A stretch of DNA of 39,801 nt, from NCBI GenBank assembly GCA_007118695.1, contig SKRC01000203.1:1-39801 (forward strand), read 5' to 3'. The stretch is from Balneolaceae bacterium (lineage in GTDB: Bacteria > Bacteroidota > Rhodothermia > Balneolales > Balneolaceae). The first letter of the stretch is position 1. Every line of letters begins with the position of its first letter. Below, piece by piece: positions 10,607 through 25,440 of the stretch. A model generated the notes under the pieces. The model saw nothing but the letters and a program-made list of their open reading frames with translations. It had not been told where the DNA came from and did no database searches. The position numbers were made by a program, and so were the translations under genes.

Positions 10607-12349
10607 TCAGTCGAAATCAGGTAGAATGACGGCATCGATCAAATGTATCACTCCGTTGGTACCACTCAAATCGACAGTGATCACCGTCGCACCATCCACG
10701 GTTACGGTGCCATTGGAATTATTAATGGTTACCATCTGGCCGTTCACGGTTTCAATCTCGGTTTCTCCGGCCGGGATATCACCGGACTCTATTCGATCGG
10801 CGATTACATGATAGGTCAGCGTCTCTGCCACTTCCTCATCAGAGAGTCCCGCCAGTGCTTCGGAGATATCCTCGAATGCGCTGTTGATCGGTGCAAACAC
10901 GGTAAATGGCCCGTCACCAGAAAGCGTGCCGGCAAGATCGGCATCAATCACAAGGTCAACCAGGGTCGTCAGCTCATAGTTTTTCTGTGCAATTTCAACG
11001 ATGTTCAGATATTTGTTGGGAATGAGCACTTCATCAATGGCGTGAATGGTGCCGTTGCTGGCATCGACATCGGCTGCAATGACTTCCGAGCTTCCGTTGA
11101 CCGTGACTCCTCCGCCAGCAGTCACATACAGACTTTCTCCGCTCATAGATGCAACTGTCTGGCTGGCATTAAGGTCACCAGATTTGACATCTGCTTCAAT
11201 GACATGATATAACAGGATTTCGGTCAGCTGTTCCATGGAAAGGCTCTCAAGGAGGCCATCGGGAAGGTTGTCAAACGCTTCATCTGTCGGGGCGAATACC
11301 GTGTAAGGCCCGTCGCCCATCAGTGCTTCGGCAAGGCCGGCATCCGTCACAGCCTGGACCAGTGTATTGAAATCAAACCTCTTGACGGCATTGTCAACAA
11401 CCGTTCCAAATGCATCCGGGAACAGTACTTTATTGACAGCATGAATCACACCATTGGTGGCTTCAATATCCGCTGCAATAACGTTGGACGAAGCATTAAT
11501 AACAACCTCTTCACCGGCTTTGATGAAAAGCTCATCTCCCTGCAGGGATGCGACTGCCTGGCGGTCGCTCAAATCTGAAGACATGACAGTTCCTCCGGTT
11601 ACATGATAGGTGAGGATCGAGATCAGCTGGTCTCCGCTCAGGTTTTCCAATGTTCCTTCGGGGAGGGCTTCAAACGCCTCATCGGTTGGAGCAAAAGCCG
11701 TGAACGGACCCAGAAATTGCAAGGTGGTGGTCAAACCGGCGCTTTCAATGGCGTCGAGCAGGATGTCGAATCCGTCAGCTTCCTGTGCAACATCAATGAT
11801 GTTGGTGGCTCCCAGTGCTTTTCTGATGGCCGATGGCAGCAATACTTCATTGATGCCATGGACTACACCGTTTGACGCCCTGATGTCGGCTTCGACGACA
11901 TTGGAGGTGCCGTTAATCACAACCCCATTACCGGATTGAGCCAGGATTCTCTCACCCTGGAGCGTTTCAACATCTCCCTGCTGCGGGACATCGGCAGCCA
12001 AAATGGTGCCGGCAACCAGATGGTAAGTGATGATCAGTTCGATATCTTCTTCTGTCAGGCTGTTCAGCACATCGGAAGGAATATCCTGGAAAGCAGCATT
12101 TGTAGGTGCAAAGACAGTGAGTTCTTCATTTTGAAGTGCTTCCAGCAGGTCTTCGTTGACCAGGGAGACAAGGGTGCTGTAGTCGCTGTCATCAGACAGC
12201 ACTTCAGCAAGGTTCATGTCAATATCCGGATCCGGATCCACCGGTGTGCCGGAATCATTATCACTGCATGCCGATAAGGCAAACATGAGCGCCAGGGGTA
12301 AGATGAGCAGGCTGGCTGCCCTGCGTATGGTTTTTGTACTCGGTAGCAT
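10607..12349 (-). CDS. Lipoprotein with four FAS1 (fasciclin) domains
   Basis: An envelope lipoprotein of about 580 residues built from four FAS1 domains (about 45-175, 180-310, 315-445, 450-578). Each has the H1/H2-type signatures such as TVFAPTNAAF, TAFAPTDEAF, TVFAPTDEAF and TVFAPINSAF, and YHV-type motifs. FAS1 domains mediate adhesion or matrix binding. The signal peptide ends in the lipobox LSAC. The frame opens at a TTG at 12364, but the ATG at 12349 is preceded at good spacing by AGAGGA and is preferred. The gene is monocistronic: its own predicted ECF promoter is at 12393-12423 and a terminator at 10467-10492. The promoter matches that of the first sigma gene, so expression probably follows that sigma/FecR/receptor operon, which lies just upstream. 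Confidence 0.93.
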   Translation of the reverse strand: MLPSTKTIRRAASLLILPLALMFALSACSDNDSGTPVDPDPDIDMNLAEVLSDDSDYSTLVSLVNEDLLEALQNEELTVFAPTNAAFQDIPSDVLNSLTEEDIELIITYHLVAGTILAADVPQQGDVETLQGERILAQSGNGVVINGTSNVVEADIRASNGVVHGINEVLLPSAIRKALGATNIIDVAQEADGFDILLDAIESAGLTTTLQFLGPFTAFAPTDEAFEALPEGTLENLSGDQLISILTYHVTGGTVMSSDLSDRQAVASLQGDELFIKAGEEVVINASSNVIAADIEATNGVIHAVNKVLFPDAFGTVVDNAVKRFDFNTLVQAVTDAGLAEALMGDGPYTVFAPTDEAFDNLPDGLLESLSMEQLTEILLYHVIEADVKSGDLNASQTVASMSGESLYVTAGGGVTVNGSSEVIAADVDASNGTIHAIDEVLIPNKYLNIVEIAQKNYELTTLVDLVIDADLAGTLSGDGPFTVFAPINSAFEDISEALAGLSDEEVAETLTYHVIADRIESGDIPAGETEIETVNGQMVTINNSNGTVTVDGATVITVDLSGTNGVIHLIDAVILPDFD

Positions 12350-12392: not shown

Positions 12393-12423
12393 GTGTAACA
12401 CCCGAGAAATGGACTATGACTAG
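12393..12423 (-). promoter_or_regulatory. Predicted ECF promoter, type 1 (FAS1 gene)
   Basis: On the minus strand CTAGTCAT (12423-12416), 14 bases, then GTGTTACAC (12401-12393), 43 bases before the preferred start codon. The same boxes and spacing occur at 16925-16955 upstream of the first sigma gene. The upstream box lies in a small inverted repeat (atgac-acta-gtcat, 12416-12429). Promoter function is inferred from the shared boxes, not measured. Confidence 0.65.
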
Positions 12424-12451
12424 TGTCATGTCAATTATATTTATGCGGGTC

Positions 12452-12470
12452 TCCCGACATCTTATCGGGA
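12452..12470 (+). other. Short hairpin with T-rich tail between receptor and FAS1 genes
   Basis: TCCCGA (12452-12457) pairs with TCGGGA (12465-12470) and is followed on the plus strand by ttcttttt. No plus-strand gene precedes it, so it may be incidental or may end antisense transcripts. On the minus strand it would lie between the receptor gene and the FAS1 promoter without a T-run. Confidence 0.35.
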
Positions 12471-12598
12471 TTCTTTTTACTCCTGGTTGTTATAAAAAAA
12501 ATGCAAGCAGCTATGACTATGCACAAAATTTCACATTGCCAGGAGCATAATTTTCTTTGTCTTACCGCACAACGCATGGTTGTTACGACACTGGGCTG

Positions 12599-15373
12599 TC
12601 AGAAATTAATTTTCAAACTGACGGATGGGTTGAATCCGGGAAGGGTTCTCTCTCTGATTTCGTATTGCTGCTCTCCATCCGGCCCCGTTCCGGAAGGGAA
12701 GAGGTTCCAGTCAATGCTGTTTCGGCGGTTCAGTACATTGATGAGGTCCAGCCTGGTTTCGAGGTCAACAGGGCCAAGATTCGGGGTATAGATGAAGGAA
12801 AAATCGAGCTGGTGGAAGGGGCTCAGGCGGTCATGTTCAGGATTGGTGAAGTCGTAGTGGCCGGCTGATGGAAAATTGTGAGGCACCATGAAGTCGTAAT
12901 ACGCCTGCCGGAAAGCCCAGCTTCTGCCGTAAATGCCCAGCCACCTGGCTGCAAACCTGGTATTAGCAGAAATACGGCCTGTCAGCCTGACCTGAAAGCG
13001 GTGAGGCTCGTTCCAGGGTGTAGGGACCATCCGGCCGAATTGAGATTCCATATTTATTCTGGATACAGTGAAATCATACCCCAATAATAACCGGAGCCTT
13101 GCCTCTGTTAATGATTGCCGGAACCTTGCGCCGATCCCGTAGGAATACATGTCAGTCACCTCAGCAAATGCATCAAGCCCGGTTCTGCTTACATCCCCAC
13201 CACCTACCATAAGATTCGGATAGGAGGTGATATAGCTGGAAGGCTGGAGTTTGAGAAATTTCTCAATGCTGAGAGAGGTTGTTTCACCCGGTTCAAGCAA
13301 AAAAGAGAGCGCTGTATGGTATGCTTTAGGTTGTTCGAAACTGCTGTCGTGCGCCCAAACTGTAAACCCGGGGACAAGCGAGCTCGGCCCGACATTGGTA
13401 ATATCAAACTGGTTGATAAACTGCCTGTAGATGCCCCCGGACAATTTCAGGCTCCAGTAACCCAGGGATGATTCAGGCTGGTCGTATTGAATGCTCATTC
13501 GGGGTTCAGCATAGATATCACCCGATGGTGAAAGGATGGTAAACCTGGACCCGGCCATGAATTTCATGTGGCTGCCAAATACCCAGTTGCCATTGATGTA
13601 TGAACTGTAAAAAGTGGATTGATAATCATTTAATGTGGGTAGATAAAAGAAATCAGTTAAACCGAACCGGGATTCAACCCGGTCGGACTGAAGGCCGCTG
13701 CTGAGGCTGAACCGGGGGGTGAATGCATAGTTCAGGTCCATACGGCCTATAAAATGCCGGATCAGGTTGCTGTCTCTTTGCTCTCTGCCCGTTTCAATAA
13801 CGCCGGATAAGTGCTCAAAAAGTTCGGTCTCGGACAGCCCGTCAGCCGAAGACTGAATAGACTCGTTGTCGAACATGGTATAGCTGTGATTCAGCTCATT
13901 CGAACTGTAGCTTGCCTGGAAACTGATATTAAGGCGGGGTGAGGCCAGCCAGTCGTAACGCAATTGCGTTGCCAGGTTTTCCCAGTTGTAGCTGTCCCTT
14001 GAAAACATATAGATCGTTTCTTCTGCAAGCTTGTCGCTGGCAAGCAGATCGGTTTCAACACGGTTTTCTCCTTTGTACAGTGAAAATGAAAGTGTCCTGT
14101 ACGGATCCGGCTCATAACGCGATGCCAGGTGAAAATCATAATAACTGATGCCGGATGCATTGTTGACCGATTGAAAAGACCTGCCGCCTGATTCGTTCAG
14201 AAGGATATTGTAGATGAGCGGGTCCACAAGATCCCACTGCTGAAGTGCACCTGACAGTGTGGGGTCCTGGTACCAGTCCCAGAAGGTTGACCTGAATGCT
14301 GTCATCAGATGAAAGCGGCTTTCATCACCGTTTGAATTGCTAAGTTGGATCCTGGCATTGGTGTTTACCGGATCAACCTGCAGCAGGGCCCGTTTATTAT
14401 TCCGGTTGGAGATATGGTGACGCATATCGATTTTCCCGGCAATCAGGCTTCCGGATTCGACGCCGAATCCTGCTTTTTCAACGGATACCCTGTCAAGAGA
14501 GTAAGGGCTGAATGCGCTGTAGAGTTGGCCGAAGCTGTAGGGGTTATAAACTGGAATACCGTCAAGAAAAATCCGGTGATCACCGCGCTGGCCTCCCTGG
14601 AGATGCAGGTCGGTGAGCGGGAGTCCGTACTGGATGCCTGAAAAAAGGGCCATGCTCTGAATGGCATCCGGAGACCGGCTGCCGGTATTCCAGTCAGACA
14701 GACGATCGATGGTTTCCTCATTTGTATGTCCAAATGAGAGCAACGGCTTATGGGCTGTTACCACAATGGGGGAAACATCAAACTGCCTGGGTTGCATTCG
14801 GATGCTTTCCCGAACATCCTGGTCCGGAGCAATGGTAATTTCTTTGCGGACCGGTTCATACCCGATATAGGAGAAAATGATTTCATGTCGGCCGGTGAGC
14901 ATGCGATTGAGGTTGAACAGTCCGGCATTGTTCGTACTGGTTCCGCCTGAAACATCGGCCAGCATGACGGTTGCCCCCGGCAGGGGATCTCCGGTTTGTG
15001 CATCCACGACTTTGCCCGTCAGGGAGCCATAAGAGGATGCGATCAATGATGATTTTACCACAACGAATGTGCCCGACGAGAGGATGATATAATCGAGCCC
15101 GGTATCTTTCAGTACCTGTTTTAATATTTCAGGTATCGTTTTCTCTCGAATTCTTTGATAGACATTGAACCCTTCAACGATAGCCGGGTCATAGATCAGA
15201 TCGGCTTCGGTTTTACCCGCTATTTCTTCCAGGGCCAAGGCCAGGGTCACCCCGCTAAATTCAAATGAGTACAGGCCGTTGTCCCGGCTTTGTGACATCA
15301 GATCTGCCGGAAACAAAGTAAACATCAGCCAAAAAATAAGTACAAGGAACAGGTTTGAATGATCCTGAAGCAT
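12599..15373 (-). CDS. STN-type TonB-dependent receptor, signalling class (copy 1)
   Basis: An outer-membrane receptor of 924 residues that probably senses and imports an unknown ligand and signals to the FecR protein encoded upstream. The order is: signal peptide (1-27), an STN domain (about 34-110, YSFEFSGVTL to GTFVVVK), a carboxypeptidase-regulatory-like domain (about 116-195, GKVVDAQTGDPLPGATV), a plug (about 205-320, with HLQGGQRGDHRIFLDGIPVYNPY) and a beta barrel ending in the typical terminal phenylalanine (SLKINF). No SusD-like partner gene follows, so it is not a classic SusCD pair. It is 8 bases from the FecR gene. The plug and barrel are clearly paralogous to those of the receptor at 21006-23792, for example both contain NQFDxTNVGPxxLVP. 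Confidence 0.93.
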   Translation of the reverse strand: MLQDHSNLFLVLIFWLMFTLFPADLMSQSRDNGLYSFEFSGVTLALALEEIAGKTEADLIYDPAIVEGFNVYQRIREKTIPEILKQVLKDTGLDYIILSSGTFVVVKSSLIASSYGSLTGKVVDAQTGDPLPGATVMLADVSGGTSTNNAGLFNLNRMLTGRHEIIFSYIGYEPVRKEITIAPDQDVRESIRMQPRQFDVSPIVVTAHKPLLSFGHTNEETIDRLSDWNTGSRSPDAIQSMALFSGIQYGLPLTDLHLQGGQRGDHRIFLDGIPVYNPYSFGQLYSAFSPYSLDRVSVEKAGFGVESGSLIAGKIDMRHHISNRNNKRALLQVDPVNTNARIQLSNSNGDESRFHLMTAFRSTFWDWYQDPTLSGALQQWDLVDPLIYNILLNESGGRSFQSVNNASGISYYDFHLASRYEPDPYRTLSFSLYKGENRVETDLLASDKLAEETIYMFSRDSYNWENLATQLRYDWLASPRLNISFQASYSSNELNHSYTMFDNESIQSSADGLSETELFEHLSGVIETGREQRDSNLIRHFIGRMDLNYAFTPRFSLSSGLQSDRVESRFGLTDFFYLPTLNDYQSTFYSSYINGNWVFGSHMKFMAGSRFTILSPSGDIYAEPRMSIQYDQPESSLGYWSLKLSGGIYRQFINQFDITNVGPSSLVPGFTVWAHDSSFEQPKAYHTALSFLLEPGETTSLSIEKFLKLQPSSYITSYPNLMVGGGDVSRTGLDAFAEVTDMYSYGIGARFRQSLTEARLRLLLGYDFTVSRINMESQFGRMVPTPWNEPHRFQVRLTGRISANTRFAARWLGIYGRSWAFRQAYYDFMVPHNFPSAGHYDFTNPEHDRLSPFHQLDFSFIYTPNLGPVDLETRLDLINVLNRRNSIDWNLFPSGTGPDGEQQYEIRERTLPGFNPSVSLKINF

Positions 15374-15381
15374 GCGAATTG

Positions 15382-16335
15382 TTATTTAGAGACTCTGTAC
15401 CCGTTGGTGGTTCTTGAAAACGTCAGACCCTTGACCGTGGTAATATCATTCAAGACCGATTCTACATCTTCCGGATCGGAATAGAATGTTGTCATCACAG
15501 TGCGCCCGATTTCCCGGTCGGTAATTTCAATGGAGGTATTGTACTTCCGTTCAAGCTCCCTGAAAATGATTTCAAGCGGTGTGTTCACGAAGGCCAGATT
15601 CCGTTGCTTCCAGGCCAGGATGTTATCGATCCGGACCGGGTCGGGATCGGCCGGTCGGATCATACCGCTAATCCACCGGCTTTCTGATCCCTCCTTCAGG
15701 CTGACCGCTTCCTGCGGAGACCCTTCAGCGAAGAACCGGACGGATCCGCTGATCACGGATACGGTGGTTTGAGAGCCGGGATCGTCCAGCCACGATCGCA
15801 CATTGAATTTCGTGCTGGTTACCTGCACAACCGATCCGTTTGCATATACATGGAACGGGTGATTGCCCGGTTCAACTTCAAAATAGGCTTCCCCGTTCAG
15901 GTGAAGATCCCGGTTGGTATAATTGAACAGGCGGCTGTAGCTGATTTCCGATCCGCTGTTGAGATTCACTGTGGATCCATCGGGAAGTTCGATGGCGGCC
16001 AGTTCTCCTTTGGGCACAGATACTTTTTTATCAGTCAAAAGAAAAGCGGCCCCGGCTATTATCAAAAAGATGGCGGCAGCGAGGTAGTATCGCAGCCCGT
16101 TATTTCTGTCGGTGTTTTGGCTGTTTACCGGTTTATCTTCAAACCCCAGCTTTGCGTGCACATCACGCAGGGCATCTTCGGTCTCGGCCTTGCTGACAGG
16201 TGGTTCATTCAGGTCAATTTCGGAGCTGTCATCCCAAACCCTTTTGAGATTCTTGCGTTCTGATTCAGATACATTATCAAACAGACGATCAAGATCCCGG
16301 TTTTTTTTGTCGTTATTCCAGGATTGTTCAGCCAT
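15382..16335 (-). CDS. FecR-family anti-sigma factor (copy 1)
   Basis: A single-pass inner-membrane regulator of the adjacent ECF sigma factor. The N-terminal cytoplasmic part (1-80) contains LKRVWDDS, the membrane helix is about 83-101, the FecR domain (about 110-215) contains VNLNSGSEISY and LHLNGEAYFEV, and a DUF4974-type C-terminal domain (about 245-317) ends in GYRVSK. The length of 317 is usual. The start overlaps the end of the sigma gene by 8 bases, which suggests translational coupling, and the receptor gene follows after 8 bases. In characterised Fec-type systems the receptor STN domain contacts the FecR C-terminal part; that contact is inferred here. Confidence 0.94.
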   Translation of the reverse strand: MAEQSWNNDKKNRDLDRLFDNVSESERKNLKRVWDDSSEIDLNEPPVSKAETEDALRDVHAKLGFEDKPVNSQNTDRNNGLRYYLAAAIFLIIAGAAFLLTDKKVSVPKGELAAIELPDGSTVNLNSGSEISYSRLFNYTNRDLHLNGEAYFEVEPGNHPFHVYANGSVVQVTSTKFNVRSWLDDPGSQTTVSVISGSVRFFAEGSPQEAVSLKEGSESRWISGMIRPADPDPVRIDNILAWKQRNLAFVNTPLEIIFRELERKYNTSIEITDREIGRTVMTTFYSDPEDVESVLNDITTVKGLTFSRTTNGYRVSK

Positions 16336-16909
16336 AGCCTATGTGCCTTGTTTCAGTGAGATACTGTTCATGCAGGCGATGGATGTTTTTCATCGCCTGA
16401 ACAATATGATTATTAACCGTTCTGCTGGATACATTCATTACATCGGCGATCTCTTCATGATCGAGCCCCTCAAAACGGCTGAGGCGGAAGGCCTCGCTTT
16501 GTCTTTCAGGTAGTTCCATGATCCACTTTTTTAAAAGCTCCAGGCGTTCCGTCCGGAGATCCGTTTCCTGATCTTCATCAGTAAGCTGATCTGCCGGCAT
16601 ATCGGCTGCGTCCAGGCCATTTTGCTCAAAAGAGCGGTCGCGTATGTGATTGAGTGATAAATTACGCACGATTTTATAAAGGTACGCTTTAATTGACTGT
16701 TCAGCATCTATGGATTCACGATGATGCCATAGTTTGATGAAGGCGTCCTGAACGATATCAGCAGCTGTGGATTTTTGCCTGGTATACCTGAAAGAAAATC
16801 TGACCAGGGGGGCATACAGGGACCTGAATAACTGGTCGAATGCCTCCCGGTCTGACGCTTTCAGGCGTTCCGTTAACTGGTTGTATTGTTCATCGTTCGG
16901 TTCGTTCAT
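16328..16909 (-). CDS. ECF RNA polymerase sigma factor, FecI-like (copy 1)
   Basis: A 193-residue extracytoplasmic-function sigma factor. Sigma region 2 (about 22-90) contains YTRQKSTAADIVQDAFIKLW, and region 4 (about 125-185) contains the helix-turn-helix LSRFEGLDHEEIADVMNVSSRTVNNHI. It heads the sigma-FecR-receptor operon. A type 1 promoter (16925-16955) ends only 15 bases before the start codon, so the transcript should have a very short leader and the gene probably activates itself. No later in-frame ATG would keep region 2 whole. The region 4 recognition helix differs from that of the second sigma (SSR against TVK), in line with different -35 boxes. Confidence 0.95.
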   Translation of the reverse strand: MNEPNDEQYNQLTERLKASDREAFDQLFRSLYAPLVRFSFRYTRQKSTAADIVQDAFIKLWHHRESIDAEQSIKAYLYKIVRNLSLNHIRDRSFEQNGLDAADMPADQLTDEDQETDLRTERLELLKKWIMELPERQSEAFRLSRFEGLDHEEIADVMNVSSRTVNNHIVQAMKNIHRLHEQYLTETRHIGYG

Positions 16910-16924
16910 CTTGTTCGGTTATCA

Positions 16925-16955
16925 GTGTTACACGCCATAAATCAGGAATGACTAG
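16925..16955 (-). promoter_or_regulatory. Predicted ECF promoter, type 1 (first sigma operon)
   Basis: On the minus strand CTAGTCAT (16955-16948), 14 bases, GTGTAACAC (16933-16925), then 15 bases to the sigma start codon. Boxes and spacing match the FAS1 promoter at 12393-12423, while the 14-base spacers differ at most positions (matches include ATTT). That pattern suggests a protein-recognised promoter, not a copied repeat. Confidence 0.68.
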
Positions 16956-17379
16956 CCGGGAAAATCATTTTTTTCAGAAATTCGTTTGTTGGTGGTCACA
17001 AAATTCCTGTTAACCGCGAATTTCTGTGAGGAAAGTTTTGAGGCACTTGTAGAATAACCTGTTGAAGAGCAACTGTTAAGAAGGGAGCGGAGGAGGGAGT
17101 AAATAAATTTATGTTTACAAAATTTTACATATAACCTGTGGACAGTGTGTCAGTTAGCAGTAAACAGTTATCAGTTAACAGTGTGGTACACACGACTCAG
17201 TTAACAGTGGCAGTTGGCAGTGGCAAGTTGATGTTCCCCGATTAAGGTCGTATGGGGTTTTCAGGCCAGGTGACAGTGGCAGGATTCAGTTGGTAGTAGC
17301 AGTTTGCAGTGGGCAGGAGCATCTCCCCTTGAGGAGGAGATAATTGAAGTGCGTTCAGCACTTTAATTTGTGGGGTGTT

Positions 17380-17435
17380 CAGTTACCAGTTACCAGTTAC
17401 CAGTTACCAGTTACCAGTTACCAGTTACCAGTTAC
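17380..17435 (+). repeat. Tandem heptamer repeat, eight copies of CAGTTAC
   Basis: Eight perfect head-to-tail copies of CAGTTAC span 17380-17435, followed by a degenerate ninth (cagtagg). Heptameric short tandem repeats of this kind are known from cyanobacterial intergenic DNA. The array has no spacers and is not a CRISPR. Degenerate copies at 17151-17225 and 4293-4313 show that it belongs to a dispersed family. Confidence 0.93.
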
Positions 17436-17457
17436 CAGTAGGCAGTAGCAGATGGCA

Positions 17458-17488
17458 GGGAACAGGGGAACAGGGGAACAGGGGAAAA
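17458..17488 (+). repeat. Tandem octamer repeat, GGGGAACA
   Basis: Two perfect copies of GGGGAACA (17465-17480) are flanked by a seven-base copy on the left (17458-17464) and a partial copy on the right (17481-17488). It lies 23 bases after the heptamer array and recalls the GGGAAGCA octamer array at 4352-4401. Confidence 0.85.
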
Positions 17489-17573
17489 TCTGAGCAATTG
17501 AACTATTGACACACCATGAACACTACCGCAAACACAAAGCCTTGTCTACAGGAAATGATTCACGAACGATAAT

Positions 17574-17923
17574 TCACAACCCCTTAAAAATCTCGTCAAC
17601 AGACACCTGTAAACCTTCTACGATTTGTGAAGCAAGGGTCTCGCCGGATTTAATTGTATGTATCAGGGTAAATTGCCCGTTTTCATTCAGAAATTGATCG
17701 ATCGTTTTCGCTTCAGGATCCGCGATCCAATACTCCCTGACCCCGTGTTGGGCATACAATTCCTTTTTCTTTTTTCTGTCAATGGTTTCGGTATGTACGG
17801 AGAGCACTTCCACCACCAAATCGGGAGCTTCTACTATGTTATTTTTGGTAATGATATTCATCCGTTCTTTGACCACAAAAACAATATCCGGCCACGATCA
17901 TTCTCACTGATACGAAGTTCGGA
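17574..17923 (-). pseudogene. Uma2-family (DUF820) nuclease remnant, truncated and frameshifted
   Basis: The intact 3' part (17574-17876, about 100 residues) carries Uma2-family signatures: EAPDLVVEVLS, KKELYAQHGVREYWIADPE and a C-terminal LxVSVDEIF-like end. Upstream, DIVFVVKERMN continues in the same frame. The preceding SELRISENDRG, also typical of the family, is in another frame, so one base seems to be lost near 17892-17898. Homology stops at the serpin stop codon (17924-17926), leaving perhaps 80-90 residues of the usual N-terminal half missing. I infer a decayed remnant of a putative PD-(D/E)XK nuclease-fold protein of unclear function. A shorter product from GTG at 17876 could still be made but would lack part of the fold. 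Confidence 0.8.
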
Positions 17924-19234
17924 TCAGGAAGGATCCGTCATCGTGCCCATGAATAGTATCGCCCCGGATTCTACCTCACGGATCACGTAAAAGTAGGGCC
18001 GGTCAAATCGCAGGTTCACCGTTTGCGGAGCACTTGTAACGCCAAATTCAACAGAGGTGGCGGCTGCCGCTTCCGTGCCTTCTTCATCCACCCGGATAAA
18101 TGTCACATGCCGGGTATCGCTGATGTAAAGATCATCCTGTATCGGGTTGATGCGGCTGAAGTCGGAAATACTGTAATCGAATGCATCGACAATTCCCAGC
18201 TCCTGCAGAATATCGCCAAACCCGTCAACTTCATACTCCAGTTCAAATTTGGGCATCTCCAGGTTGAGAGTCACATTGCCGAAAGCCCCGGTCAGCTCCT
18301 GCCAGTCATCCCAGGTCTTGTTCTGCAGCCAGTTTTCAAGGCCTGTCTCTTCATCCGGCAGAACCAGGGTCATGGCATAACCGGCATCACCGTAATAGAG
18401 GTTCACTGCCTGATAATCGTCACCACTGGTATACTGCATGTTCTCCACTTCGCTGATGCGCATCATATCCACATCGGCAGTGGTACCGTCCGGCCGGTGA
18501 AACGGTTTGGTTTCGGTGTCGTCGGGATCAAACTGTATGGTCCACTCTCCGTTGAAATAGATCGCGTTGATCAGATACATCACCGTCAGCGGGTCGATCG
18601 GGTCTTCAACGATCTCTTCTATCAGCCCTTCGGTTTTATCGCTCACCCACTCATTGATTCGCTCCACGGTATCCGGGTCGTCAAAATCAGCGGCTTCGAT
18701 GACCGCATCGAAATAGTGCCGGTTGGTTTCCAGAAATTCCTGTTCCACACTGAAAGTATCGCGGTACCAGATGGAGTTGGCGATATTGAACACCACGTCA
18801 TCGTCGAATTCGGTCAGCAGGCCGATCAGTTCCCGGGCGGCCTGGTTGATCTCTTCGCGGCTCATCTCCTGAAGGCCGAATACCTCCTGCATCTGCGTGT
18901 AGGTATCACCTTCGGCTCCGTTCATGGTCATCCCGTAGGCCATCAGGATGCTCAGGGGAGAGATGAAATGACTCTCCTGCGGGCCGGATTCAAGCAGTTT
19001 GTGCATCAGTTCAAAACCGAATGCGCCGGACCCGTCAACTATTTGCATCTCCCCGGATGAAAGCGCCCGGGGCAGCTCTCGCCTTTCGAATGGCTCGGCC
19101 GGATCGTCGATGTCATTATCGGCGGTGCTGAAAAGATCGCAGCCGGTCAGGGTGAGAGAGAGGGATATAATAAGGATGAATATCATATGGGATAATTGGC
19201 GTAGTGTCGTCATTATCATAAAACGTTTTTCCAT
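17924..19234 (-). CDS. Lipoprotein serpin, predicted inhibitory
   Basis: A serine-protease-inhibitor fold protein of 436 residues exported as a lipoprotein: a signal peptide ends in the lipobox LTGC (Cys32). The serpin body has ILMAYGMTMNGAEGDT, NAIYFNGEW and RPYFYVIREVESGAILFMG. The reactive-loop hinge is ideal for inhibition, EEGTEAAAAT at 384-393; counting from it puts the scissile bond near Thr400-Ser401, suggesting elastase-like rather than trypsin-like targets (inference). The gene lies between the two sigma/FecR/receptor operons and has its own upstream type 2 ECF promoter (19284-19314) shared with the second sigma gene. It may protect the cell surface from extracellular proteases. Met6 or Met8 are alternative starts. 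Confidence 0.94.
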   Translation of the reverse strand: MEKRFMIMTTLRQLSHMIFILIISLSLTLTGCDLFSTADNDIDDPAEPFERRELPRALSSGEMQIVDGSGAFGFELMHKLLESGPQESHFISPLSILMAYGMTMNGAEGDTYTQMQEVFGLQEMSREEINQAARELIGLLTEFDDDVVFNIANSIWYRDTFSVEQEFLETNRHYFDAVIEAADFDDPDTVERINEWVSDKTEGLIEEIVEDPIDPLTVMYLINAIYFNGEWTIQFDPDDTETKPFHRPDGTTADVDMMRISEVENMQYTSGDDYQAVNLYYGDAGYAMTLVLPDEETGLENWLQNKTWDDWQELTGAFGNVTLNLEMPKFELEYEVDGFGDILQELGIVDAFDYSISDFSRINPIQDDLYISDTRHVTFIRVDEEGTEAAAATSVEFGVTSAPQTVNLRFDRPYFYVIREVESGAILFMGTMTDPS

Positions 19235-19283
19235 TAATAATGTTACTTGTTTGATGGGGACTTATTCTGAAGGATTTCATTCT

Positions 19284-19314
19284 TTAATACACACATCCGG
19301 GAGGGAATACCTAA
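19284..19314 (-). promoter_or_regulatory. Predicted ECF promoter, type 2 (serpin)
   Basis: On the minus strand TTAGGTAT (19314-19307, preceded by CA), 14 bases, GTGTATTAA (19292-19284), then 49 bases to the serpin start. The downstream box is identical to that of the second sigma gene (25383-25391). Upstream of the -35 box the sequence runs into an A/T-rich repeat also seen at the 20658-20688 copy. Confidence 0.62.
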
Positions 19315-19352
19315 TGAATATTGAATATTGAACAAGGAATTCTGAATGTTAA
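19311..19352 (+). repeat. A/T-rich dispersed repeat (GAATATTGAAC type)
   Basis: Plus-strand ctaatgaatattgaatat, then gaacaaggaattctgaatg. A longer, closely similar run is at 20686-20765, and a related reverse-complement run at 263-292. It overlaps the outer edge of the serpin promoter. The rest of the 285-base gap between the serpin gene and the next gene shows nothing else. Confidence 0.7.
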
Positions 19353-19519
19353 AGGTTTTTCTTTGTGCCCTTGGCGGTTGCAGTATTAACCGTGGAGGCC
19401 GCATAGAACGCAATGTTTTATGGCAGAATTCATACCCTAACAAGGTTTCCCATAATTCTCCCTGCGCCTCCGCGTTTCCGCGCCTCCGCGGTAAAAAAAA
19501 CAGAGGGCAAAGGTCAAAA

Positions 19520-20596
19520 TCAAAAATTCCATTTGAATTGCAGAGCCGGTACAGGTTCAACGATCTGTCCATTTCCGGCCTTGATGTGCGTAAGATCAAT
19601 TTCCGTTGCAGATGGTTCGGAAGGCGATCTGTCTGACAACAGATGATACCCGGAACGAATCACTGTAACCAGCCCGGCAGTCATATTCATCATCGACAAC
19701 CCGGTGCGGGCGTGATTGACTTCGTGGTACTCGTGGATAGGGATGGTGCAATTACCCATGCACATTCCCGGCTCACCCTGAATCTCGGTGTAGGTCGACC
19801 GGTTGTCCACATTCAGGGCGCCAAGCAGGATAGAGCCGGTGCCAGCGGCAAAGCCGAACCAGTGAGCAGCCGATGATGAATTGAATAGCCAGGGCTGAGA
19901 TGCTCGGTTGCTCATGTAAACGGTGTTGGCAACGGTCAGTGCAGTGGATGCGGTGCCATACTGCCAGTCCACATTGTTGCGGGTAACCTTTTTCTCTTCC
20001 ACTTCATAAGTAATATTACCGTACATGGGCTGAATCATAGCCAGCTCCTTGGTTGTAAAACCGGACTTTTCTGCCCATCGATTGAATTCCGAACTCTCTA
20101 TTTCCGGGATAAATGCATACTTGAACTCTTCGTTGATGGCCTCGGCTATCTCCCGTCCGGCACTTTGCTCCACAAGATACCCGACGGCGCAGATATTACC
20201 GGTTTCGTCAATAAACGTCGGCCTCCTCGGATCTTCGTGGCCGTCGTTATAGGGAAATAGTCCGGCTTCATAATACTCTGCGAGCAGGTCGAGATAGGCC
20301 ATCCGGTTTTGTTTCTGCTCTTCGCTCAGGTGGCCGGTCGGGCGCTGCCGCAACTCGGCTTCTACATATGCAAGATGGGTACGGATCCGGGTATAATCGG
20401 AAACACCCTCTTCCGGTTTCTCCCCGAATGTATGAACATAACTTTCATCACCGATAACCGCATTGACAGTGTGATCCGATCTGTTTTCTGTTGAATCGGC
20501 CTGGTGTTTTAAATGATAGAGTCCGATGTCGCTGAAAATAGTTGCTCCGGTAAGGATCAAAGCAAGTGTGAATACAAGTATCATCGTGCGTCTCAT
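19520..20596 (-). CDS. Exported protein of unknown function with RRPTFID-CAVGYL motif
   Basis: A 358-residue protein I cannot name. An N-terminal signal or anchor (about 4-24) is followed by a helical region (60-118), then RRPTFIDETGNICAVGYLV at 124-142 and, after about 50 residues, FTTKELAMIQPMY (180-192). I recall a similar R/P/F-D-x-x-G-x-x-CA-h-x-x-L plus IQPxY pattern in uncharacterised bacterial secreted proteins. The C-terminal half has Gly/Ala-rich hydrophobic stretches (about 215-265 and 300-325), a GMCMGNC cysteine pair and a terminal phenylalanine (KWNF), so it may be associated with a membrane. The type 2 ECF promoter at 20658-20688 ties it to the second sigma factor. Function is open. 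Confidence 0.85.
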   Translation of the reverse strand: MRRTMILVFTLALILTGATIFSDIGLYHLKHQADSTENRSDHTVNAVIGDESYVHTFGEKPEEGVSDYTRIRTHLAYVEAELRQRPTGHLSEEQKQNRMAYLDLLAEYYEAGLFPYNDGHEDPRRPTFIDETGNICAVGYLVEQSAGREIAEAINEEFKYAFIPEIESSEFNRWAEKSGFTTKELAMIQPMYGNITYEVEEKKVTRNNVDWQYGTASTALTVANTVYMSNRASQPWLFNSSSAAHWFGFAAGTGSILLGALNVDNRSTYTEIQGEPGMCMGNCTIPIHEYHEVNHARTGLSMMNMTAGLVTVIRSGYHLLSDRSPSEPSATEIDLTHIKAGNGQIVEPVPALQFKWNF

Positions 20597-21005
20597 AGTT
20601 CTGTCATTTTTGGGTTTTTAATTTGCTGATGCATGATTCGGTTGATGTCTTTCACCAGTAGTACACATCTGGAAAGGCGAATACCTAATGAATATTGAAT
20701 AATGAACAAGAAACTCCGAATATCGAATATTGAACAAAGAATTCTGAATGTTGAAGGATTGGACAGAGGGGCGGGGGACTTTGAATTTCGAACGATCAAA
20801 CAATTGAGTATGAGAACTTGAGAACAATAAAATATTAGAACAGGGAACGCGGAGAGCATCAGAACAGATGAATATCGACCAATGAACAAGGAACGGGGGA
20901 TAGGAAGATGAGTATCGATTAAGAGAATAAGGAACGGGGAACAGGGAGCACGAACTTCGCACCGTAAATTATTCCATTTCTTGAATTTTCCCGCTCCTTT
21001 AATTT
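20597..21005. other. Intergenic stretch with promoter and purine-rich degenerate repeats
   Basis: Apart from the promoter at 20658-20688, this 409-base gap is low-complexity. 20686-20765 holds gaatattgaa-type units, and 20780-20955 holds purine-rich units such as gaacaaggaacggggga and gagaataaggaacgggg. Minus-strand open frames across it translate to repetitive strings (NIQNSLFNI and SLFNIRYS types) and are not counted as genes. Confidence 0.7.
20658..20688 (-). promoter_or_regulatory. Predicted ECF promoter, type 2 (unknown exported protein)
   Basis: On the minus strand TTAGGTAT (20688-20681, preceded by CA), 14 bases, GTGTACTAC (20666-20658), then 61 bases to the start codon. Spacing equals that of the other four predicted promoters. 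Its spacer contains GCCTTTC, also present two bases shifted in the second sigma promoter. Confidence 0.6.
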
Positions 21006-23792
21006 TCAAAATTTGAACTGAATACTTACCGACGGAGTGAAGCCGGGCATGGTTCGTTCCCGTATGTCGTATTCCCCCTCCGAACCGGTTGGATGCAGGC
21101 TCCAGTCGATCACATTTTTACGGTTCAGGAGATTGATAAAATCGAGCCGGACTTCAAGATCGGAAAAGCCGAGCGAAGGCCGGAAAATCAGGGAAAGATC
21201 CAGCTGATGAAACGGGCTGAGACGGTCGGCTTCCGGGCTGAGAAACAGGTAGTTACTGTCTCTGAAAAGCAAAAAGTCGTAGTAAGCCTGGCGGAAGCCC
21301 CAGGCTCGCCCGGCTACGCTTTGCCACTGGGCGACGGCGGAAATATTGGAATGTACATGCCACAATGCCCGCGCCTGAAACCGGTGGGGTTCATTCCAGG
21401 GAGCCGGCAATGTCCGGCCAAACTGCGACTCCATATCGATGTTGCTGATGCTGTAGTCATAACCGGCCATCATATGCAGACGGGCATCGGGGAAATCCTG
21501 CGTAACCCTGACGCCCCCGCCGTAGGCTGTCATCGACGTGGCTTCGGCAAATGCATCGAACCTGGAGCGGTCGACCGACATACCGGAAAACAGGTTCCGG
21601 TAGGAGGTGATATAGGTGGTCGGCTGCCATTTGTGAAACGCTTCCAGGGTGATGGAGGTATGATTGGCAGGCTCGTAGAGCAGTGACCCGCTCAGATGAT
21701 AGGCCTCCGGCAATTTGTCGTTTCCGGCGTGCGACCAAATCGAAAAAGAGGGGACAAGAGCCGTCGGCCCGACATTGGTCATATCAAACTGGTTGATAAA
21801 CTGCCTGTAGAGGCCGCCGGTCAGGCGTACGGACCAATATCCGGAATCGGCATCGGGGCGGTCGTACTGAATGCCTGCACGGGGTTCGGGATACAAACCG
21901 CCATCGGGATGTACGTATGTAAACCGGCTGCCCAGGTTCAGATTCCAGTATTCACCCAGATTGAAATTGCCGTCGATATAACTGCCGGCGAACGTGGTCT
22001 GCTGATCCGTTTGAGTGGGCAGGTAAAAGAGATCACTTAAATTGACAACCGAAGAGACCCGGTCCAGTTGTATGCCCATTTCCAGGGTGAAATAACGCGT
22101 AAAATTGTAGGTCGCATCACTTCGGAGGGTAAAATGCCGGATACTGTTTTCATTATTCTGGGAAGGGAGCATTCCGGCAGAGCCAACTGTTTGAAAATCA
22201 GAAAAAGCCTCAGACGCTGACATTGCCCTGAAGGCTCCGTCAAGTTGAGGAATATTCGGGTCATGGCTTGTTCCGAACAGGTACCGGTGATCCAGGCGGT
22301 TGGCACTGTAGCTGATGCGGGTCGAAAGGTCCATGCGGGGTGTGGCCAGCCAGTTGTGTGTGAGCTGGCCCATGATATTGTTCCAGTCGTACAAATCGCG
22401 GGCATAGGCGTACTCGGGCTCCTCTTCAACGGGGAAGGTCTGGGCAAGCAGGTCGGTGCGGACGAAATTCCTGCCGGTATAAAAAGAGGCGTTAAAATCG
22501 TGATAGTTGTTCAGCCGGTATCGCGAGGCAAAATGAAAATCATGAAACCGGACATCGGAATCGTGCTCCATGGTCTCATACGTTACAGATTCCCGGTCCT
22601 GGTCAAGAACAAGGTTCATAATCAAAGGATCCACTTCATCCCATTCCCGCAGCGTCTGATCGAGCGTGGGATTGCGGTAAACGTTCCAGTAGTTAGTGCG
22701 AAACGCAGACATGATTTTCAGCGGAGAATCATCATCACCCAATGGCAGTTCCAGGTCCGTCCTGGTGTTGAGGCTCAGCGGATCGCCCTGAACCATAAAA
22801 CCCTGTTCACCGCTGCCCGGTACATCGTGGTTCAGGTTGATCAGCCCGGCAATCTGACTGCCTTCCTGAACCCCGTAACCCGCCTTATGCAGATTGACTT
22901 TGCTGATGGCATAGGGACTGAAAGCACTGAACATCTGCCCGAAACTGTAGGGATTATAGACCGGCACACCATCGAGGAGCATACGGTGGTCTCCCCGCTG
23001 GCCGCCCTGAAGGTGAAGGTCGGTCATCGGCAGTCCGTATTGCACGCCGGAAAAGAGATTCAGCGACTGAATGGCATCCCTCATGGCCCCGGGACGCTCC
23101 CACACGCTGTTTTCACCGAGGTTATGACGGTCACCGGTCATCCGCGGCATTTGAGGCACATGGCCGGTCACTATAACCGGAGAGATATGAACCGGTTTGG
23201 GTTCTAGCGAGATCTCTTCCCGCTGCTGCCTATCGGGCCTGATTTCGATCGTTTTGTACACCGGTTCGTATCCCACGTAGCTGAAGATGATGTTGTAGGA
23301 GCCGGATACAAGCCGGTTAAGGTTGAAATTGCCTGCACGGTTGGTGCTCGTGCCGCCCGAGGCGTCTGCGAACATCACGTTTGCTCCCGGGAGTGGTTCC
23401 CCGGTGTAGCCATCTACGACCTTTCCGGCAAAAGAGCCATAGGCAGGTTCGTCACGAACGGATTTGACAATGACAATGGTTCCGGTTGATAAGGTGATAA
23501 AATCGAGTTGGGTGCCTTCGAGAACATGCTGCAACAGATCCGGCATGTCCTGGTTTCGAATTCTTTTATGGATCGTGATATCCCGGATCAGGGCGGGATC
23601 ATAGACCAAATCCAGTTTCGCCGTCTCTGCCACTGTTTCGAGCACATCCCTGAGTTCTTCACCCCTGAATTCAAACGTATAGGCCTCTCCGCTCTGCTCC
23701 TGGCCGTAGCCTGCCAGGGGCATGCATAGCAAAAAAATCAGCCCGGGCAGAATATACTTGAAAAAGGTCAGGGTTGATTCCGTTCGGCTCAT
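21006..23792 (-). CDS. STN-type TonB-dependent receptor, signalling class (copy 2)
   Basis: A 928-residue paralogue of the 12599-15373 receptor with the same order. The signal peptide (1-30) is followed by STN (about 36-115, YTFEFRGEEL to GTIVIVK), a carboxypeptidase-regulatory-like domain (GKVVDGYTGEPLPGANV), a plug with HLQGGQRGDHRMLLDGVPVYNPY, and a barrel ending in SIQFKF. The gene overlaps the FecR gene by 4 bases, so it is translationally coupled. Similarity runs through all domains, so the two operons come from duplication or from one family. Differences are spread through the barrel and could reflect different ligands. No ligand is suggested by the neighbours. Confidence 0.93.
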   Translation of the reverse strand: MSRTESTLTFFKYILPGLIFLLCMPLAGYGQEQSGEAYTFEFRGEELRDVLETVAETAKLDLVYDPALIRDITIHKRIRNQDMPDLLQHVLEGTQLDFITLSTGTIVIVKSVRDEPAYGSFAGKVVDGYTGEPLPGANVMFADASGGTSTNRAGNFNLNRLVSGSYNIIFSYVGYEPVYKTIEIRPDRQQREEISLEPKPVHISPVIVTGHVPQMPRMTGDRHNLGENSVWERPGAMRDAIQSLNLFSGVQYGLPMTDLHLQGGQRGDHRMLLDGVPVYNPYSFGQMFSAFSPYAISKVNLHKAGYGVQEGSQIAGLINLNHDVPGSGEQGFMVQGDPLSLNTRTDLELPLGDDDSPLKIMSAFRTNYWNVYRNPTLDQTLREWDEVDPLIMNLVLDQDRESVTYETMEHDSDVRFHDFHFASRYRLNNYHDFNASFYTGRNFVRTDLLAQTFPVEEEPEYAYARDLYDWNNIMGQLTHNWLATPRMDLSTRISYSANRLDHRYLFGTSHDPNIPQLDGAFRAMSASEAFSDFQTVGSAGMLPSQNNENSIRHFTLRSDATYNFTRYFTLEMGIQLDRVSSVVNLSDLFYLPTQTDQQTTFAGSYIDGNFNLGEYWNLNLGSRFTYVHPDGGLYPEPRAGIQYDRPDADSGYWSVRLTGGLYRQFINQFDMTNVGPTALVPSFSIWSHAGNDKLPEAYHLSGSLLYEPANHTSITLEAFHKWQPTTYITSYRNLFSGMSVDRSRFDAFAEATSMTAYGGGVRVTQDFPDARLHMMAGYDYSISNIDMESQFGRTLPAPWNEPHRFQARALWHVHSNISAVAQWQSVAGRAWGFRQAYYDFLLFRDSNYLFLSPEADRLSPFHQLDLSLIFRPSLGFSDLEVRLDFINLLNRKNVIDWSLHPTGSEGEYDIRERTMPGFTPSVSIQFKF

Positions 23793-24766
23793 CGATAGAT
23801 CCTGTATCCGTTTGCTGTCTCTGCGTACCGGAGGCCTTTCACCAGGGAAATATCATTCAGCACTGTTTCCAGGTTTCGCGGTTCCGTGTAATAGGTTGTC
23901 AGGGTTTCATACCGCATCTCCTGTGCCTCCAGTTCAATCCGTACATCGAACCGGCGCTCCAGTTCATTGAGGATCACCGCAAGTGGTTTTTCATCAAAAT
24001 GAAGCAAATTGCTGCGCCAGCCAAGAACCCGGTCCGCTGATACACTGACCGGATCAGCCGGTTCAATCATGTTGTTGTTCCAGGAGCTCATTTTTCCCGG
24101 AGATAACACGACCCGTCTGTCAGGGGATTTTTCAGGATAAAAATACACTTCCCCTTCAGTTACCGTCACGCTGGTTTCGCTGCCGGGATCGCTGCTCCAG
24201 GAGCGGATATTCAAGCGGGTGCCGGTCACTTCAACAGTTGATCCGTTGGCGTTGATGATAAACGGCTCGTCGCCGCTTCGAATTGTAAAATATGCTTCAC
24301 CGTCGAGGTGCAAGGTTCGGTTGGTCCGGCCGAAAAGACGATTATGACGAATTTGGGTGCCGCTGTTCATTTCAATTGTGGACCCGTCATTCAGTTCAAT
24401 TTCAGCCATCTCACCATAAGAGACGAAGTACATCCTGGGGGTCAACAGATACCCGGTGCCCAGTACGATCAGGATTACGGCAGCGGCAAGGTACCACTTC
24501 GGCCCGAACCCTGAGGGTGAATTTTTTCCGGAGTCCACAGGCAAATCCAAATCCGGAGCGGGAAATCCAAGCCGGTTTTGCACTTCCGATAGTGCCTCAT
24601 CCACCGGTTTGATTCGCTGGCGGTGCTTCTGTCTGGATTCTTCCAGGTCCGTACCGCTTTTTTCCCAGACCCTGAGAATTTCTTTCTGCTCTTCAGAAGA
24701 ATATTTCTTCAACAGCTCCCGGTCTATGGGGTGCTTGTTATTCTGATTGTTGGATTGATCATTCAT
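23789..24766 (-). CDS. FecR-family anti-sigma factor (copy 2)
   Basis: Paralogue of the first FecR, 325 residues. The N-terminal cytoplasmic part contains EILRVWEKSG (about 29-38), the membrane helix is about 91-109, the FecR domain contains IEMNSGTQIRHNRLFGR and LHLDGEAYFTI, and the C-terminal DUF4974-type domain ends in GYRIYR. It overlaps the sigma gene by 4 bases and the receptor gene by 4 bases, a tighter packing than in the first operon. It is expected to hold or process the second sigma factor in response to the receptor at 21006-23792. Confidence 0.94.
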   Translation of the reverse strand: MNDQSNNQNNKHPIDRELLKKYSSEEQKEILRVWEKSGTDLEESRQKHRQRIKPVDEALSEVQNRLGFPAPDLDLPVDSGKNSPSGFGPKWYLAAAVILIVLGTGYLLTPRMYFVSYGEMAEIELNDGSTIEMNSGTQIRHNRLFGRTNRTLHLDGEAYFTIRSGDEPFIINANGSTVEVTGTRLNIRSWSSDPGSETSVTVTEGEVYFYPEKSPDRRVVLSPGKMSSWNNNMIEPADPVSVSADRVLGWRSNLLHFDEKPLAVILNELERRFDVRIELEAQEMRYETLTTYYTEPRNLETVLNDISLVKGLRYAETANGYRIYR

Positions 24767-25368
24767 AATCCGTTTCCATCCTTAGAGTTTGAATGGTTGT
24801 TATAGCGCTTCCGCAGGTGCGATAGTGCATCCACAATATGGTTATTAACCGTTTTTACTGTCAGATTCATCACATCGGCTATTTCTTGATGATCCAGGCC
24901 TTCAAAGCGGCTAAGCTCAAAGGCTTCCCGCCGCCGGTCGGATAGTTCATTTATCCATATTCTGAAATTTCCGGCCAGCTCTTCAACACTGTCTGTACCC
25001 TCATTACTGACAGTATCCTCATCATGGCCGGTGATCAATGACCGGCCAGAATCGGTCAAATGAACTTTTTCCAGTTCCATCATTCGGTCTGAGTGATCTC
25101 GTAAGTGATTCAATGCCCTGTTCCGTACCATCTTATAGAGATAGGATTTGAGTGATTGTTGCGGGTCAATGTCGTTACGATCCTGCCAAACGGATACAAA
25201 AACATCCTGAACGATATCACAGGCCTGATCATGACACTGTGTATATCTGTAGGCAAAGTATGTAAGCGGATAGTACAGCGATCGGAAAAGGGCATTAAAT
25301 GCCTCCCGGTCCGACCGGCTGATCCTATCCGCCCACTCTCGTATCTGTTCAGCTGATGGTTGATTCAT
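24763..25368 (-). CDS. ECF RNA polymerase sigma factor, FecI-like (copy 2)
   Basis: A 201-residue ECF sigma factor. Region 2 contains YTQCHDQACDIVQDVFVSVW, region 4 contains the helix-turn-helix LSRFEGLDHQEIADVMNLTVKTVNNHI, and an acidic linker (about 115-135) joins them. It heads the second sigma-FecR-receptor operon. A type 2 promoter (25383-25413) ends 14 bases before its start codon, nearly the same very short distance as in the first sigma gene, which supports autoregulation. Candidate regulon members in the window are the serpin gene and the 358-residue unknown. Confidence 0.95.
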   Translation of the reverse strand: MNQPSAEQIREWADRISRSDREAFNALFRSLYYPLTYFAYRYTQCHDQACDIVQDVFVSVWQDRNDIDPQQSLKSYLYKMVRNRALNHLRDHSDRMMELEKVHLTDSGRSLITGHDEDTVSNEGTDSVEELAGNFRIWINELSDRRREAFELSRFEGLDHQEIADVMNLTVKTVNNHIVDALSHLRKRYNNHSNSKDGNGL

Positions 25369-25382
25369 AACCGATTACATCA

Positions 25383-25413
25383 TTAATACACATTACGCGA
25401 AAGGCATACCTAA
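25383..25413 (-). promoter_or_regulatory. Predicted ECF promoter, type 2 (second sigma operon)
   Basis: On the minus strand TTAGGTAT (25413-25406, preceded by CA), 14 bases, GTGTATTAA (25391-25383), then 14 bases to the sigma start. Unlike the serpin and 20658 copies it is not next to the A/T-rich dispersed repeat, so the shared boxes are not merely part of that repeat. Confidence 0.68.
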
Positions 25414-25440
25414 TGTTAAATAAAAAAAAAGAGGAAAAAC

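Follow-up and report, generated by a model that had tools for sequence, protein, structure and literature searches.

A stretch of 39,801 nucleotides of contig SKRC01000203.1 (positions 1 to 39,801) from a Balneolaceae bacterium (assembly GCA_007118695.1), referred to below as the window, carries two adjoining gene cassettes on its minus strand. In each of them a sigma factor gene of the extracytoplasmic function (ECF) type heads an operon with a FecR gene and a TonB-dependent receptor gene. Promoter-like elements of two kinds precede these operons and three single genes, which encode a fasciclin-domain (FAS1) protein, a serpin and an orphan protein of 358 amino acids (aa). We consider it quite probable that the cassettes represent two paralogous cell-surface-signalling circuits, each with its own promoter code and its own regulon, and this two-code, two-regulon interpretation of the sequences is well supported by comparison with related genomes.

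Circuit A consists of sigma 1 (16328..16909, 193 aa; 150.4 bits against TIGR02985), FecR1 (15382..16335) and receptor 1 (12599..15373, 924 aa), and circuit B of sigma 2 (24763..25368, 201 aa; 144.6 bits, cut-off 126.4), FecR2 (23789..24766) and receptor 2 (21006..23792, 928 aa), all on the minus strand. Profile searches identified both sigma factors as FecI-like proteins made up of regions 2 and 4 alone (Sigma70_r2/r4_2 in sigma 2). The FecR genes overlap their adjoining sigma genes and encode putative anti-sigma/sigma regulators with FecR and FecR_C domains (Pfam PF04773, PF16344). Both receptors are predicted TonB-dependent transducers. In receptor 1, Pfam and alignment suggest STN and CarbopepD_reg_2 domains; STN is recognized by Pfam in this receptor only (E 2e-4, under the curated cut-off). 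Receptor 2 shows STN-like, CarbopepD_reg_2, plug and barrel regions, and its AlphaFold model (pLDDT 77.5) contains a strand-helix domain at residues 38-110. The nearest Foldseek matches of this model were BtuB, PfeA, FpvA and FoxA, which points to a TonB-dependent transporter fold; FpvA and FoxA are transducers. A full-length SusC match was absent, as TIGR04056 reached 44-50 bits against a cut-off of 368 and covered the N-terminal part only. The receptor family is confined to the Balneolales, with members in Fodinibius, Rhodohalobacter, Gracilimonas and many metagenome-assembled genomes. Because the two sigma factors are 49% identical and fall into separate clades of the tree, each with its own orthologs, the circuits are to be seen as old paralogs and not as a fresh duplication. 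An earlier note on this DNA had proposed duplicated, diverged circuits that acquired exported effectors; separate promoter recognition and exported-protein targets are retained from that proposal.

Exact-pattern searches of the window recovered, before the five minus-strand genes named in the earlier note, a two-box element with a spacer of 14 bases, and confirmed that the boxes are alike within two groups and unlike between them. Code A (CTAGTCAT-N14-GTGTWACAC) has two sites, one before the FAS1 gene (12393..12423, CTAGTCAT-N14-GTGTTACAC), where the same class is also found in other genera, and one before the sigma1-FecR1-receptor1 operon (16925..16955, CTAGTCAT-N14-GTGTAACAC). Code B (CATTAGGTAT-N14-GTGTAYTA) has three, before the serpin gene (19285..19316, CATTAGGTAT-N14-GTGTATTA), the gene of the 358-aa protein (20659..20690, CATTAGGTAT-N14-GTGTACTA) and the sigma2-FecR2-receptor2 operon (25384..25415, CATTAGGTAT-N14-GTGTATTA), the last conserved before homologs. 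All five lie on the minus strand, 15-62 nucleotides (nt) separate the last promoter base from the gene start, and 100 dinucleotide shuffles gave no match to either two-box pattern. The serpin and 358-aa sites have an A+T-rich repeat of about 20 nt in common 5' of the box and are thus not fully independent of each other. Intergenic repeats of this ATTCAATATTC type abut the -35 boxes of both genes (19317-19345 and 20691-20755, minus strand), and CTGGTAA is repeated in tandem in the region upstream of sigma 1 (17380-17440, minus strand).

The element is conserved well beyond the window. When spacers of 8-20 nt were tried in the stretch of up to 110 nt before the start of 66 distinct sigma homologs, T[AG]G[GT][CT][AG][TC]-N14-GTGT[ACT] was found before 45 and the N15 version before one, while none of the other spacers occurred. 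The spacer is hence 14 nt in 45/46 sigma-gene promoters, compared with approximately 0.01-0.04 motif matches per spacer in shuffled upstream sequences. A wider upstream stretch raised the number of sigma homologs with a box to 51. Conservation in related genomes, which had been anticipated, extends to orthologous sigma, FAS1, serpin, 358-aa and LVIVD-repeat genes. In a separate set of family sigmas (loci L150, L139, L145 and L287-L293), TGGTCAT boxes precede the start by about 110-150 nt, and near these genes no member of the receptor family was found.

Among the relatives the -35 box falls into three classes, namely TAGGTA/TAGGTG (TAGG), T[AG]GTCA (TC) and TAGTTA (TT), which co-vary with the sigma factor. 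The most class-informative column of the sigma alignment is the residue directly before the TVNNH motif of region 4.2 (corrected mutual information 1.03 bits; next column 0.63). This is where the two sigma factors of the window had been noted to differ, and the sequence reads SSR in sigma 1 (R163, codon 16421-16423) and TVK in sigma 2 (K172, codon 24853-24855). Lysine occurs with the TAGG class in 19/19 cases, arginine with TC in 22/25 and N, S or W with TT in 7/7, so that residue and class agree in 48/51. Alignment with E. coli sigma-E places the position at the residue before TVRS, where the recognition helix begins; we take this stretch to be T169-V170-R171-S172 in the native numbering. With the residue rule fixed beforehand, 14 new sigma factors were fetched; the box could be read for 12, and 11 of these followed the rule. 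In a tree built without the code residue the class changes about seven times; no independent pair runs counter to the rule, and those with a difference conform to it. Sigma 1 (R, TAGTCAT) and its sister from the same genus in locus L040 (W, TAGTTAT) make up the clearest natural pair. The expectation that each promoter class travels with its own sigma factor and with the K/R residue is thus borne out by the class/residue association, the blind test and the loci in which several promoters share a class.

Further promoters follow the local sigma factor. In 29 sigma loci they share the class of the sigma gene in 29/34 cases, compared with a mean of 11.5 and a maximum of 23 in 20,000 permutations of sigma classes among loci. 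In several other genera the gene directly after the receptor is FAS1, with a TAGTCA promoter; where the 358-aa gene follows the receptor, the promoter is TAGGTA. The circuit B class precedes 358-aa homologs in L154, L158, L160, L165 and L186. No promoter was found upstream of the distant homologs L087-L092, and the link of the 358-aa gene to the circuit therefore holds only for the TAGGTA-type neighbours. The serpins are mostly unlinked to the sigma locus; of the genomes that have a family sigma, 13/19 show the promoter before a serpin, against 0/10 of those that lack one (Fisher p=4e-4). Nearly all serpin boxes match the local code, with misfits in genomes G003 and G053: the box is TAGTTAC in G034, where the sigma residue is S, and TAGGTGT in the f3 lineage, and in G010 the sigma and serpin promoters alike have CTGTA at -10. 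Where a TC-class sigma is present, FAS1 homologs carry TAGTCA in 8/11 genomes; in the seven genomes that lack such a sigma they have no box.

For the genome as a whole (4.1-Mb assembly, 313 contigs), pattern searches with mismatches were run. For code A, with three mismatches allowed, the two window sites were the only credible matches; those with three mismatches showed no excess over a reversed-pattern control and were discarded. Code B gave three further good sites, one with a single mismatch before a lipoprotein gene (C127:3927) and two with two mismatches, before the gene of another serpin, which shares 69% identity with that of the window (C21:7492), and before an LVIVD-repeat lipoprotein gene (C261:1103). 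The prediction for the LVIVD promoter was independently upheld at the sequence level by orthologs in three genomes: in G124 a 63% identical ortholog adjoins the sigma gene in divergent orientation and has a TAGGTGT promoter, and in G019 and G020 the orthologs have TAGGTA boxes. A relaxed code-B pattern added a single match, on contig C102, which was rejected as a coding chance match within a 592-aa open reading frame (ORF); a match on C280 within a long antisense ORF was dismissed on the same grounds and one on C13 as weak. Code-B matches thus lie almost entirely upstream of sigma and exported-protein genes, in line with the clustering that had been predicted for genome-wide hits.

The effectors are mainly predicted lipoproteins; judged by eye, a lipobox is present in every effector of both codes except the 358-aa protein. 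The FAS1 lipoprotein of circuit A (10607..12349, minus strand, ATG at 12349; lipobox LSAC) has four fasciclin domains (PF02469 x4, E 7e-133). Code B comprises five effector genes, of which two encode serpins. The window serpin (17924..19234, minus strand; lipobox LTGC) covers PF00079 in full length (E 8e-103) and has the hinge GTEAAAATS before the reactive loop, of the small-residue type seen in inhibitory serpins; by these two features its sequence fits that of a putative inhibitory serpin. The 358-aa protein (19520..20596, minus strand) is predicted to be exported or membrane-anchored and has an invariant ICAVGYL...MIQPxYG core. It matched no family in Pfam or NCBIfam, and in a fold search no PDB structure matched its model (pTM 0.50) with an E value under 0.001. 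In the family alignment the core RRPxF...ICAVGxL...MIQPxY is invariant, and several long helices are predicted.

Some neighbouring features were also observed. The C127 lipoprotein (L017, 3348-5846) has a weak Big_14 Ig-like match, an S8 subtilisin-like protease gene adjoins it across the promoter on the other side, and in L116 a weakly similar lipoprotein follows the receptor. Many TAGGTA-type loci (L115, L117, L154, L158, L161, L163, L165-L167, L169, L186, L191 and L198) contain a short FAS1 match in divergent orientation, a few hundred bases before the sigma gene; it is not the same as the four-domain FAS1 found in circuit A. In the Fodinibius-type TAGTTA loci L121, L153, L114, L197, L172, L175 and L177 the downstream promoter serves other genes, namely those of an exported protein of about 490 aa (AQLINLKTAPVATGDQF start) and a lipoprotein of 264-273 aa, and DUF4397 proteins follow in L172, L175 and L177. 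Between the serpin and sigma 1 genes of the window lies an apparently decayed fragment of a Uma2-family putative endonuclease (17574-17876, minus strand), matching the last half of the profile only.

In the mechanism that we propose, a putatively STN-bearing, TonB-type outer-membrane receptor would bind its ligand and signal to the inner-membrane FecR, which would free or activate the FecI-type sigma factor. This flow from ligand at the receptor through STN-FecR contact to sigma release is modelled on the Fec family. Each sigma factor would then transcribe its own operon, a positive autoregulation suggested by the promoter position, together with separate single genes for exported proteins. 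With a GTGTA -10 common to both circuits, sigma 1 would read the -35 box TAGTCAT and drive FAS1, and sigma 2 would read TAGGTAT and drive the 358-aa gene, the two serpin genes and the C127 and LVIVD lipoprotein genes. A pairing of serpin and FAS1, as the earlier note had put it, is therefore misleading, since FAS1 belongs to circuit A and the serpins, with the other three effectors, to circuit B. The -35 difference tracks R163 versus K172, in which the code residue may play a causal role, and the circuits should therefore cross-talk little, an insulation suggested by the divergence of the box classes. Nine genomes have two family sigmas with readable boxes, and the classes differ in six (the window, G012, G070, G048, G051 and G055) and coincide in three (G040, G046 and G049). 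We hypothesize that the -35 box is selected by a single residue where the recognition helix begins, with three states (K, R or uncharged), and that this has kept paralogous circuits separate while the scattered effector promoters (FAS1; serpin, LVIVD and 358-aa) were re-tuned in step and stayed with their own circuit across the Balneolales, and we regard the chances for and against this as evenly balanced.

That both sigma factors recognize both promoter types, the box differences being lineage drift within one overlapping regulon, is a possible but unlikely alternative. The GTGTA -10 and the first three -35 bases (TAG) are indeed common to both codes, and the three same-class genomes point in the same direction. 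Yet the downstream promoter keeps the class of its own operon within a genome (in the window, in G012 and in Fodinibius salsisoli, which has a TAGTTAT and a TAGTCAT circuit), and effector promoters change class together with the sigma factor across genera. It is very improbable that both boxes are instead operators of a conventional DNA-binding regulator and not an ECF promoter: both group-A sites hold GTGT-W-ACAC, a perfect inverted repeat, but this palindrome is lost in group B and in most relatives (GTGTATTA and others). In addition, the fixed 14-nt spacer and the placement shortly before gene starts fit a sigma promoter, the motif is near-absent elsewhere in the genome, and the -35 class tracks a region 4.2 residue.

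The repeat shared immediately 5' of the -35 box might mean that the promoter reached the serpin and 358-aa genes with copies of the repetitive ATTCAATATTC intergenic element and was not kept by selection. We think this decidedly unlikely, because the sigma 2 site lacks the repeat flank and homologous genes of other genera carry the box in other flanks; like the operator explanation, it was rejected as a main explanation. Shared ancestry alone, with agreement within groups arising from copied loci and no functional coupling to the sigma factor, would draw on the small number of independent switches on the sigma tree. It is extremely improbable given that unlinked effectors match the local sigma in promoter class and have no box where the sigma is absent, that controls and shuffles yield essentially no boxes, and that the sister sigmas of the R/W pair differ in residue and box jointly. 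Several points nevertheless weigh against the two-circuit, two-code reading. Four loci break the residue rule, L043, L046 and L281 (R with TAGGTAT) and L176 (R with TAGTTGT). The downstream promoters of L281 and L176 are nevertheless TAGTCA, the class expected from R. In G037 and G043, the genomes of L043 and L046, the FAS1 gene has a TAGGTAC box beside the TAGGTAT of the sigma gene, in favour of effectors that follow their circuit; the code has therefore truly changed there, and other residues must contribute. The K/R residue is accordingly to be seen as the best single correlate of the -35 class and not as its whole determinant. Only one to three independent pairs per residue are supported, too few for significance, and the permutation and Fisher tests ignore relatedness. 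The box is also absent at some serpins, most LVIVD genes and the distant 358-aa homologs, and the predicted autoregulation departs from the type system, as classical FecI is not autoregulated (PMC9249621).

The analysis defines predicted ECF promoters and regulons for the Balneolales, an order for which we found no described ECF promoter, and offers a natural test bed in which the -35 specificity of sigma factors changes while the regulons follow. Bacterial serpins and FAS1 lipoproteins are placed under predicted control of surface receptors, by which their role becomes testable, and cultured relatives (Fodinibius, Rhodohalobacter) make the ligand, the effector role and cross-talk accessible to standard genetics. 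In the part of the literature that was covered, neither this code, nor any ECF promoter of the Balneolales, nor such control of serpin or FAS1 genes was found described.

The components resemble those of the E. coli FecI-FecR-FecA system, with a sigma factor, a FecR regulator and a TonB receptor that is putatively STN-bearing here. In E. coli, fecA has the only promoter under FecI control, and autoregulation of fecIR does not occur (PMC9249621). In the Balneolales circuits, in contrast, the sigma gene comes first in its operon and has a predicted promoter of its own, which is that of its targets, separate exported-protein genes are added, and no iron-uptake genes were seen in either cassette. 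For secreted targets of a surface-signalling sigma there is a precedent in PUMA3 (VreA-VreR-VreI) of Pseudomonas aeruginosa, which controls secreted proteins and lipoproteins and not uptake genes alone (PMC2729926), but the targets and the organism differ and PUMA3 is one circuit without paired codes. While both sigma factors score above the cut-off for the FecI-like sigmas of Bacteroidetes (TIGR02985), the circuits described here lack SusD and polysaccharide enzymes and have FAS1, serpins and other exported proteins as predicted targets. Residues of sigma2 and sigma4 have been mapped to -10 and -35 bases in autoregulated ECF sigma factors (Todor et al. 2020 PNAS, as summarized in PMC8103513); compared with the code as given in that summary, the Balneolales appear to present a natural three-way -35 switch within one FecI-type clade, which unlinked effector promoters follow.
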